From positions 1,142,582-1,206,581 of the forward strand of contig NZ_CP011097.1 in the NCBI RefSeq assembly GCF_000955905.1: DNA of 64,000 bases. The letters run 5' to 3'. The translations under genes and the position numbers were made by a program. The notes beneath the pieces were generated by a model. That model worked only from the letters and a program-made list of their open reading frames with translations. It was not told the origin of the DNA and searched no databases. Positions 41,147-44,010 of the stretch are shown here, piece by piece. This stretch comes from Candidatus Nitrosotenuis cloacae. GTDB taxonomy: Archaea > Thermoproteota > Nitrososphaeria > Nitrososphaerales > Nitrosopumilaceae. Numbering within the stretch: position 1 is the first letter of the stretch; the number at the start of each line of letters is the position of its first letter.

Positions 41147-42625
41147 TTAGGACTTTAATTTGATGATTCCGTTTGTTATCAGATACTGGATTCCATTGAC
41201 AAAGTCCTTATCAGTGGTTTGTCCCTGTGCCCAGAATTTGGCAGCATCCTTTACCCAAGCTGGTATGGTGTCGCTTTTTGCGCTAGCTGTGGTGCTTGAT
41301 GGAATTTTGATTATTTTTTGATTGATCAAATATTGGAGTCCAGACACAAAGTCCTTATCAGTAATTTTGCCGTCTGCCCAGAATTGTGCATTGCTCTTAA
41401 TCCAGGATGGAATTACAATGTCGCCCTTTGGCGGTATGTCTTTTGGTGGTGTGGTAGAGGTTCCAGCCTGAACGTCAACATCAAATGTTACAAATCCTGC
41501 CTTTGCAGAGTCAGGAGCAGTTTCAGGACCGGTGCCAGAGACATAAATCGCATAAGTCGTCTTGCCGGATTCTTTGATGTCAATAGTGGTACGGACCTGT
41601 CCTCCAGTGGTAAAGAGTGTGTCTCGATTGTCCTCATTTGCAACTGAACGAATTGGCTTTGCACCGTCTGCAGTCATCTCCACTACCAGTATATCATAGT
41701 GGACTTGGCTTACGAATTCTTCCTGATTTGCGCTACGCTTAAAGTCAATTATCATGTCCATTGGGCATCCTTGCATTGGTTTTTGTGGTGAGTATTTTAC
41801 ATTGATTATCATGGTGTTTGTGTTTGTGTTCTTTGTGACAAATGCAAATTGGTCAGTGATTGCAGGGCAGTTCTTGTCTCGTATCACCTCACCGCTGTCT
41901 TTTTCTTTCTCAAACGGATCTTTCTTTACGTCTTTTTGATAGTCCAATAATTCGAATCTATATTCTTGTGGCGGAACGCCTGATGAAACATGGGCATAAG
42001 TGTCGGCCTTTACTGGGAATGGAAAATTATCTACAACCCAGACATTGTTTATTTTGCCTCCTGTCTTCCAGGATATACGCACAGTGTCAAAGATCCCATC
42101 AGGAACTGCTATTTTTTCCTCAGATGATGGAAGGATTTGTTCGCCTCCAATGTTGCCGATCTTTCCCCAAGATGGCATTGCGAATTTTTTTGGTCCCTTA
42201 CCAGTACTATCTTTAATGTCTCCAGTTGCATATGCTGAGAGCCATGACAAAGATGACTTGAATGCAGCTGCATATGGAACCATGTTCTTGCTGCTACCAA
42301 TTGGTTCTGCAGCAATTTTACCTAGATTGATTGTTCCCTTGTGGGTCTTGCCACCATCTTTTACTAGAGTCTTTAGATGCCATTGGTTTTCGCTTCCGAC
42401 TTGTTGATCGCCTTCCACCCAAAAGTCAATCTGGAATTTGGTGCAATCCTTATAGTAAACATGACATAGTGAATAGCTAAAGTAATCTCCTTTTTTGAGT
42501 CCCTCCCCAACAAACCAAGAACCCTCCTTACTTACGCCACCGGCTTGGACCTGAGCGCTTGCGCCATGAACTAATCCGGATGAGATTAGAGAAATAGCAA
42601 GTAATGCAACTAAAACTGTCTTCAA
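41147..42625 (-). CDS. secreted protein with tandem C-terminal repeats
   Basis: A 492-residue exported protein. The signal peptide is residues 1-24 (cut after A-S-A). Residues 25-230 form a beta-rich domain similar to that of the following gene. A Cys pair (C257, C287 region) is near the middle, and residues 270-385 resemble an Ig-like domain. The C-terminus has two copies, about residues 405-440 and 455-490, of the I-P-x-W-I/V-K-x-x-A-x-F-W-A repeat (ending D-K-D-F-V-x-G-I/L-Q-Y-L-I) that is common in thaumarchaeal surface proteins. Likely cell-envelope function. Confidence 0.75.
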   Translation of the reverse strand: MKTVLVALLAISLISSGLVHGASAQVQAGGVSKEGSWFVGEGLKKGDYFSYSLCHVYYKDCTKFQIDFWVEGDQQVGSENQWHLKTLVKDGGKTHKGTINLGKIAAEPIGSSKNMVPYAAAFKSSLSWLSAYATGDIKDSTGKGPKKFAMPSWGKIGNIGGEQILPSSEEKIAVPDGIFDTVRISWKTGGKINNVWVVDNFPFPVKADTYAHVSSGVPPQEYRFELLDYQKDVKKDPFEKEKDSGEVIRDKNCPAITDQFAFVTKNTNTNTMIINVKYSPQKPMQGCPMDMIIDFKRSANQEEFVSQVHYDILVVEMTADGAKPIRSVANEDNRDTLFTTGGQVRTTIDIKESGKTTYAIYVSGTGPETAPDSAKAGFVTFDVDVQAGTSTTPPKDIPPKGDIVIPSWIKSNAQFWADGKITDKDFVSGLQYLINQKIIKIPSSTTASAKSDTIPAWVKDAAKFWAQGQTTDKDFVNGIQYLITNGIIKLKS

Positions 42626-42711: not shown

Positions 42712-42888
42712 ATGTGCGAATGCGCCAAAATTCACATGTTTGAAATAGAATTCAAGCTTGCCGGAATGACAGTTGTTCCAACGCACAAAAACTGCGGCAA
42801 TCCGCTAAACGGGCCACAGCTGGAAAAATTCCAAAAAGAACTAGTAAAGTCATGGGGCTTAGATCCTGAAGACGAAAAACTCATCTAG
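42712..42888 (+). CDS. 58-residue protein with N-terminal C-x-C motif
   Basis: A small gene, ATG 42712 to TAG 42888, encoding 58 residues that begin M-C-E-C-A-K-I-H and have a further Cys at 28, near H25 (T-H-K-N-C-G-N). Two Cys close to the start plus a C/H pair could bind metal. The rest is amphipathic and ends acidic. A TATA-like CAAATATA at 42678-42685 lies about 30 bases upstream. It is not a family I recognise. It lies 38 bases from the 3' end of the convergent metallothionein-like gene. Confidence 0.55.
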   Translation: MCECAKIHMFEIEFKLAGMTVVPTHKNCGNPLNGPQLEKFQKELVKSWGLDPEDEKLI

Positions 42889-42925
42889 TAATAATTAAAA
42901 AATAAAAACAAAAAGTAGGTTAAGT

Positions 42926-43072
42926 TTAACTTAACTCTGCTACTGCTTCTTTACAAACAGAAGCCTTGCATTTACAATCGGCGCTGCATAGACAGTGACC
43001 TTGCATTTCGCAATCACAAGTAAAGTCTGGATCGCCGCTGTCTGCTTCGCAACCGCAAGCTTGATCTACCAT
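42926..43072 (-). CDS. metallothionein-like Cys-rich protein, 48 residues
   Basis: A 48-residue gene (ATG 43072, TAA at 42928-42926) with nine cysteines: C6, C8, C19, C21, C27, C29, C33, C35 and C40, plus His26. Four C-x-C pairs plus one single Cys, with many acidic residues and no aromatics except one Phe, is the hallmark of metallothioneins. It should bind Cu(I) or Zn(II) in thiolate clusters. A TATA-like CTTTAAAAC (43102-43094 on minus) is 26 bases upstream. It does not match a named metallothionein family that I can recall. Ammonia oxidisers depend on copper, so copper storage or buffering is a reasonable inference. Confidence 0.75.
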   Translation of the reverse strand: MVDQACGCEADSGDPDFTCDCEMQGHCLCSADCKCKASVCKEAVAELS

Positions 43073-43093: not shown

Positions 43094-43102
43094 GTTTTAA
43101 AG
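43094..43102 (-). promoter_or_regulatory. TATA box of the metallothionein-like gene
   Basis: Minus-strand CTTTAAAAC is centred 26 bases before the ATG at 43072, which supports transcription of the small gene without a leader. Confidence 0.55.
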
Positions 43103-43131
43103 GTTATCAAGATTGTATTGAAAAAAACACC

Positions 43132-44010
43132 TCACGCATAATTTTGCAAGTGTATCAGATTGTTTGCTGTTTTGTGCAATAACATGGCTTGCTGTTCCAG
43201 TTTAGTTGGGTCATGCTCCAAGTCCAGTGCAGTCTTTAGAACGTGAATGAGCTCTGGTTTTTTGTGGATTGAATCTCGTATGGATATGATGTTGTTTTTG
43301 TTCAGATATCCCAGATAAAAGTAGCAATCAGAGAGCAATGAATTTGCTACCAGATATTCGTACTTTTTTTGAATTATCACACCATGATTGTTGTTTTCAG
43401 TCATGTCTGAAAATCCAATCGTGGACTTCATCATTCTTTCCAATAATGATGGTGTGGCTCGCTCAAGGCCTAGAATTTCCTCTATGCCAGAAAAGGTTAC
43501 ATTTTTGGTGTTTTTTACAAACTTGCGGATAAACCCAAGCATGTGAGTAGGGCTGCGAGGTTTTGCATTCAGCAATACCAGTCCATCACAGACAAGATAT
43601 GATGCACATTTGATCCATATTGCAGAGAAAGGATCATCTAGGTTTTGTTTTGCCTTTGTGGCAAAAAAAGCCGCATCCACAAGACAGCTTTTTGCACAGG
43701 CGTTTCGTATTTTGTCTTGTTTTTCCTTTATGTTAGTCAGTAAGGTTCGTAGTTTCCATTGCGGATCAGAGAGAATTTGCATTGATTCGTATTTTTGTAG
43801 TACATCAGAGCTTGACTCGTCTATTTTTCCATGATGGATTCGTATGATTTGATCATCCAGTGTAGCGATGGCATCCTTTTGTATTAAATCATCAAATACT
43901 GTGAGATTGTATTCGCAGCAATCAAGTGTGGTTTGGTGCACCTTGCAACCCCCAAAGCCTACCGTACTGTTTGATAATCCAAGTTTTGGTATCATGTCTT
44001 TTATTTGCAC
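43132..44010 (-). CDS. hypothetical protein, 292 residues
   Basis: Not recognised. A soluble, mainly helical protein with clustered cysteines near the N-terminus (C22, C31, C32) and others at about C104 and C108 (N-A-C-A-K-S-C), which could bind metal. Central helices carry A-F-F-A-T-K-A-K-Q-N-L-D-D-P (about 114-127). No signal peptide is seen. It stands alone between the metallothionein-like gene and tRNA-Glu. Confidence 0.5.
   Translation of the reverse strand: MQIKDMIPKLGLSNSTVGFGGCKVHQTTLDCCEYNLTVFDDLIQKDAIATLDDQIIRIHHGKIDESSSDVLQKYESMQILSDPQWKLRTLLTNIKEKQDKIRNACAKSCLVDAAFFATKAKQNLDDPFSAIWIKCASYLVCDGLVLLNAKPRSPTHMLGFIRKFVKNTKNVTFSGIEEILGLERATPSLLERMMKSTIGFSDMTENNNHGVIIQKKYEYLVANSLLSDCYFYLGYLNKNNIISIRDSIHKKPELIHVLKTALDLEHDPTKLEQQAMLLHKTANNLIHLQNYA

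Follow-up and report, generated by a model that had tools for sequence, protein, structure and literature searches.

The window, the whole stretch of 64,000 nucleotides of Candidatus Nitrosotenuis cloacae DNA analysed here, contains a short gene whose product an earlier note had described as metallothionein-like. The open reading frame is real and encodes 48 residues on the minus strand, which the note had left unsaid, and the plus-strand frame across the same positions is interrupted by stops (Table 1). Its composition is as then noted: nine cysteines, making up 19% of the protein and arranged as four C-x-C pairs (C6/8, C19/21, C27/29 and C33/35) plus C40, a single histidine (H26) and few aromatics, F17 being the only one. 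The protein is acidic, with 10 D/E residues versus 3 K, and consists of a single domain almost without hydrophobic core. Small size, richness in cysteine, C-x-C pairs and scarcity of aromatics, by which the metallothionein class is recognized, are thus all found in it. The C-x-C count of four is the highest in the window, the runner-up among stop-to-stop frames of at least 40 codons having three, and the gene is present as a single copy in the 1.62 Mb host genome.

Table 1. Position of the metallothionein-like gene and of the features around it in the window.
Feature	Position	Strand	Remarks
Metallothionein-like gene	42926..43072	-	48 aa; ATG at 43072, stop at 42926; nine Cys: C6 C8 C19 C21 C27 C29 C33 C35 C40
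Core promoter of metallothionein-like gene	43095..43107	-	TATA box TTTAAAA, BRE-like ATAACC just 5' of TATA box
T-rich stretch between convergent stops	42889..42925	-	T-rich in minus-strand reading, by inspection only; likely terminator region
Convergent 58-aa gene	42712..42888	+	Cys 2, 4, 28; His 8, 26
Upstream neighbour F1	43132..44010	-	292 aa, same strand as metallothionein-like gene
Downstream neighbour F0	41147..42625	-	492 aa, predicted secreted

A TATA box had been placed ahead of the ATG by the earlier note, and it is indeed present there, spanning -29 to -23 relative to the start codon. A TATA-like box starting between -31 and -29 was found in all 72 upstream regions of the soluble form that were long enough to judge (L046, being too short, was left out), while a TATA-like word occurred in 1.5% of shuffles. 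This spacing of 29-31 bases before the ATG fits, and suggests, a leaderless mRNA. In the conservation profile, the most conserved upstream stretch is the block around TGTACTAACCTTTTAAAACAAGT. Upstream of Nitrosopumilus-type loci the TATA box is flanked in near symmetry by TGTACT and CAAGT, and TACTAACnTTTTAAAAnAAGT occurs in 33 of the 72 regions; these flanks, which are not present at the promoter of the window gene, may represent an operator placed over the promoter.

The surroundings of the gene are largely maintained between genomes. In 28 neighbourhoods picked from about 80, F1 was present in 27 and F0 in all, F0 being a loose cluster that takes in a related neighbour as well. A diverged metallothionein copy occupies the same place in five of the 28 (L122-L125 and L127), and these copies are therefore taken as orthologues. 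The convergent gene for a 58-residue protein, whose stop lies 37 bases from that of the metallothionein-like gene, accompanies 66 of 72 soluble loci; it seems to be lacking at L052, L055, L056 and L079, while at L044 and L064 the sequence stops 292 and 19 bases, respectively, past the metallothionein gene. With its MCEC..H start and PTHKNCG motif, the 58-residue protein is a possible metal-binding partner. It matched no Pfam or NCBIfam family, F1 and F0 matched no Pfam family over cut-off, and none of the genes next to the metallothionein-like gene in the window is a copper gene.

The earlier note had proposed searching archaeal genomes with the 48 residues, and this search returned homologues in relatives. 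A scan of genome contigs gave 100 related stretches, of which 80 were kept, from Nitrosopumilales or related thaumarchaea. All nine cysteines are invariant in the 81 sequences formed by these relatives and the window protein, and cysteine number and spacing are thus kept across homologues, as is characteristic of the class. The conservation extends to residues other than cysteine, in particular DQACGCE, GDP and CDCxMQG. In contrast to the cysteines, H26 is replaced by alanine in 18 of the 81 sequences, which argues for thiolates as the sole ligands. The protein is under purifying selection, with a median dN/dS of 0.107 across the 1695 of 2628 pairs having dS between 0.1 and 1.5 (the 933 pairs outside this range were left out) and a mean pN/pS of 0.16 over 73 coding sequences; the window gene and L002 differ by nine synonymous changes and one non-synonymous change. 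The open reading frame is a real and strongly conserved gene, far past what chance would give.

In a sample of 398 genomes from the phylum, 64 matched the family profile: all 63 of the Nitrosopumilaceae and one weak match elsewhere. The latter (G385, E 0.006 over 24 residues, L133) has no fitting cysteine array and is probably due to chance. In a larger sample of the family, 228 of 250 genomes matched, as did 127 of the 131 more complete ones. The 63 Nitrosopumilaceae genomes all carry amoA, as detected by an archaeal AmoA profile. The soluble gene was found in none of the 10 genomes of the families (f2 and f3) that we take to be Nitrosocaldus-like and Nitrososphaera-like, though all 10 bear amoA. 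Archaea can therefore oxidize ammonia without the gene, and the reference to thaumarchaea in the earlier note was too wide in regard to these other families. Motif matches in Nitrososphaera-like and Nitrosocaldus-like genomes were mostly simple repeats, and the subset of listed loci that was fetched consisted of low-complexity frames, none of which was counted as a homologue. Among viral contigs, 46 stretches fitted the cysteine pattern and none was a relative of the protein. A minor observation concerns G299, in which two diverged metallothionein copies lie within 5 kb on one contig (L132) and an amoA-family match (G299:C12:7996-8544) lies between or beside them.

All 93 distinct domains follow the spacing CxC-x9/x10-CxC-x5-CxC-x3-CxC-x4-C, the first gap being x9 in 32 and x10 in 61, and a search that admitted neighbouring lengths found no other variant; the gaps among the last seven cysteines were 5-3-4 in all 93. 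This geometry is shared to a considerable extent with the beta domain of vertebrate metallothionein (PDB 2mhu), which also has nine cysteines, is small and is almost without aromatics, and whose Cys 5, 7, 13, 15, 19, 21 and 26 are in register with C19, C21, C27, C29, C33, C35 and C40 of the window protein. However, nothing in the archaeal protein corresponds to Cys 24 and 29 of the beta domain; it instead carries a CGC 9-10 residues upstream in its N-terminal part, and it has no alpha domain. Sub-threshold matches to the corresponding Pfam family (PF00131) were obtained for 11 of 31 members, the best with an E of 0.0078; the alignment places residues 18-43 without gaps on positions 5-30. Two relatives scored 15.5 and 16.2 bits, below the gathering cut-off of 23 bits, and the window protein itself matched no Pfam family, PF00131 included. 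We read the shared register as convergence on one cluster geometry and not as homology. Taken from its sequence, then, the protein would be a metallothionein in its manner of working, yet it is not a member of PF00131.

A fungal copper metallothionein (PDB 1t2y) likewise shares the spacing CxCx5CxCx3CxC between its first six cysteines and C19-C35 of the window protein. It has 25 residues and seven cysteines, with x2 before the last cysteine where the archaeal protein has x4, and it has neither the extra CGC nor the conserved residues other than cysteine; the likeness is one of spacing, with no sequence homology shown. The mycobacterial MymT, to which the archaeal protein may be likened by description and not by sequence, is also small, cysteine-rich and encoded by an open reading frame of the unannotated type. 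Unlike the archaeal family, it is a bacterial copper-resistance protein, said to bind up to six Cu(I) (PMC7558416). No match was found in NCBIfam for the 48-residue protein. SmtA of cyanobacteria and pseudomonads is likewise a prokaryotic, soluble metallothionein, but none of 31 members matched PF02069, which we take to be its Pfam accession, at E values up to 10. SmtA is described as a zinc protein with a zinc-finger fold (PMC7558416), and the copper storage protein Csp (PF03860/DUF326), the suggested job of which is similar in that Cu(I) is held in an ammonia oxidizer, differs from the metallothionein-like protein in being a folded four-helix bundle (PMC7558416). None of the 31 members matched PF03860 at E values up to 10.

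In 38 of the 63 Nitrosopumilaceae genomes, as counted from the table of profile matches, the domain occurs a second time, closing a frame of about 455-526 codons. Four of these 38 copies are near the soluble form in sequence and 34 are diverged, one of the latter with a TAG inside the frame. The fusion consists, in order, of a signal-like N-terminus, an ectodomain of about 285 residues, one hydrophobic segment, SRSLK, the conserved tail GIDPSRLVGYQTSASSGGYQTNRGEAQL, a proline-rich linker and the metallothionein domain. From this topology, read by eye from the frames, the fusion is predicted to be a single-pass membrane protein and, by a positive-inside reading, the metallothionein domain is predicted to lie on the cytoplasmic side. 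An AlphaFold model of the fusion from seven sequences had a mean pLDDT of 33.8. Gene conversion was considered as a recent link between tail and soluble copy and was set aside, as DNA identity between the two averaged 87.5% within genomes versus 86.7% between genomes for the eight genomes compared; two of the eight, with tail/soluble identities of 94.8% and 97.8%, do hint at it. The finding is accordingly wider than first described, comprising a putative metallothionein present throughout an archaeal family and a predicted membrane-tethered variant of it.

The protein to which the domain is fused has a distribution of its own. Its ectodomain profile matched 72 of the 398 genomes and the archaeal AmoA profile 73, with 72 genomes common to both lists, so that the ectodomain is present in 72 of 73 amoA-bearing genomes and in none of the 325 others. 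This coincidence makes the partner protein specific to ammonia oxidizers in the sample; the sole exception, G096, bears amoA together with the soluble metallothionein and gave no ectodomain match. The metallothionein domain forms the tail of this protein in most Nitrosopumilus-like genomes. In the genus of the window organism the tail is without cysteine (L137), and the genome of the window has the soluble form only. An unrelated domain of about 75 residues takes the same position in L162, L192 and L193, and the Nitrosocaldus-like and Nitrososphaera-like proteins inspected have no tail. Judged from these frames, the tails of the membrane protein are exchangeable modules, and the cysteine-free and unrelated tails argue that the metallothionein tail is not essential to the partner protein. 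The ectodomain matched no Pfam or NCBIfam family over cut-off, and its adhesin matches in the PDB (E 0.34 and 0.97) were weak and regarded as noise.

Cysteine modules of a similar kind occur in other proteins as well. The genome G366 is the one member of the family in which only a tail copy was found, and it harbours, at L209:117-853, a 36-residue CxC-rich open reading frame located 120 bp upstream of a gene for a secreted Cupredoxin_1 protein (E 1.5e-8). This frame may represent a second metallothionein-like type. A further secreted protein of this genome (L210) is rich in Met and His and has CxC repeats at its C-terminus; it shares the module CxCx5CxCx3CxC with the 36-residue frame. Relatives of the Met/His-rich protein in G144 (L213) and G489 (L214) also carry cysteine-rich repeat tails, that of G144 being a long CNCGDGQHG array resembling an extracellular poly-metallothionein. 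As these are different proteins, they support a role in copper by association only. The copper-store family PF03860 was found in none of the 63 Nitrosopumilaceae genomes and was present in two of six Nitrososphaera-like genomes and in three others of the 398; this pattern is compatible with a replacement of one copper store by another, although the two distributions do not form a clean complement. The copper-storage protein NVIE_028200 of N. viennensis, with 18 cysteines, is up-regulated under copper limitation, and N. maritimus has been suggested to use a chaperone other than CopC (both PMC7785015).

The Nitrosopumilaceae, which count among the most abundant marine archaea, run their energy metabolism on copper. 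The earlier description of the protein as metallothionein-like agrees with its composition, the invariance of its cysteines, the lack of a hydrophobic core and a cysteine register like that of known metallothioneins. We favour, with moderate confidence, the interpretation that it belongs to a new archaeal family of metallothioneins, acts in the cytoplasm mainly as a buffer of Cu(I) and has a membrane-tethered paralogue. Cu(I) is the likely main metal, to which the restriction of the gene to amoA-bearing archaea, the fusion to a membrane protein specific to ammonia oxidizers and the CxC modules beside or inside copper-type proteins of one relative point indirectly. The nine thiolates would wrap a single metal-thiolate cluster of the size of the vertebrate beta domain, approximately Cu(I)6-S9 or Zn3-S9. 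In holding mainly Cu(I), the protein would keep free copper low in copper-dependent cells and could supply the metal for the assembly of cuproproteins, while the tethered form may hold this buffering capacity at the membrane, close to the machinery of copper transport or ammonia monooxygenase.

The main rival reading, to which we give a minor though appreciable chance, places the protein among the zinc or zinc/cadmium metallothioneins; instead of handling copper, it would then buffer zinc in the cytoplasm and defend the cell against toxic divalent metals. Nine cysteines in register with the vertebrate beta domain would suit a Zn3-S9 cluster as found there, and SmtA, the best-known prokaryotic metallothionein, is a zinc protein (PMC7558416). 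The acidic character of the archaeal protein (10 D/E versus 3 K) also accords with zinc. SmtA-type zinc sites use histidine, however, and the only histidine here is alanine in 18 of 81 sequences; the amoA-bearing hosts and the copper-type setting of the related modules point, if indirectly, to copper. The fixed geometry bears also on a role of the protein in thiol redox chemistry or as a scavenger of nitric oxide, with metal binding secondary. Ammonia oxidizers produce nitric oxide and reactive nitrogen species, and an extreme cysteine content in a single-domain protein could serve to quench them, but an exact cysteine spacing, kept in 93 of 93 domains, is needed by a metal cluster and not by a simple scavenger, and the Nitrosocaldus-like and Nitrososphaera-like ammonia oxidizers do without the gene. 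We hold this to be the least probable of the readings.

A structural adaptor of the zinc-finger type, binding a protein partner and recruited to the membrane by way of the fusion, is also quite improbable. In its favour, residues other than cysteine, as in DQACGCE, GDP and CDCxMQG, are conserved too, and the sole PDB profile match was to a zinc domain, the UBR-box of UBR1 (E 0.022, 0.033 and 0.19); yet this match is weak and amounts to a coincidence of cysteines over residues 4-34. One aromatic residue and hardly any hydrophobic core argue against an adaptor fold, and four CxC pairs exceed the needs of a structural finger.

Within the preferred reading of a copper buffer, the tethered form invites comparison with NVIE_013530 of N. 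viennensis. This protein is exclusive to ammonia-oxidizing archaea without being conserved in all of them, has a single transmembrane segment, is very highly expressed and co-migrates with AmoA/B/C (Hodgskiss et al., PMC10030591). Going only by these matching properties, we conjecture that the ectodomain protein is its counterpart. A copper relay spanning two compartments and serving ammonia monooxygenase, in which the soluble Cu(I) metallothionein is combined with a tethered domain on a protein accompanying the enzyme, appears rather unlikely; if true, a metallothionein would form part of an accessory to a copper monooxygenase. A tethered metallothionein on a protein found only in ammonia oxidizers would also give a handle on the delivery of copper to the first enzyme of nitrification, and the overlooked 48-residue thiolate protein, present family-wide, offers a direct candidate, and one easy to express, for the intracellular holding of copper.

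Our literature search, which covered few subscription journals, returned no report of an archaeal metallothionein or of this family, and expression data for the gene were not found in the literature searched. Metallothionein orthologues are not encoded by Thermococcus gammatolerans according to PMC3407056, and the family is not described in the parts accessible to us of PMC12193353, PMC11132505, PMC3407056, PMC7558416, PMC7785015 and PMC10030591. A search with the tags Nmar_045, Nmar_046 and Nmar_047 gave matches in the literature for Nmar_045 only, and PMC12448741 and PMC5847659, in their accessible parts, concern other genes; the gene of N. maritimus is estimated to lie near Nmar_0467.
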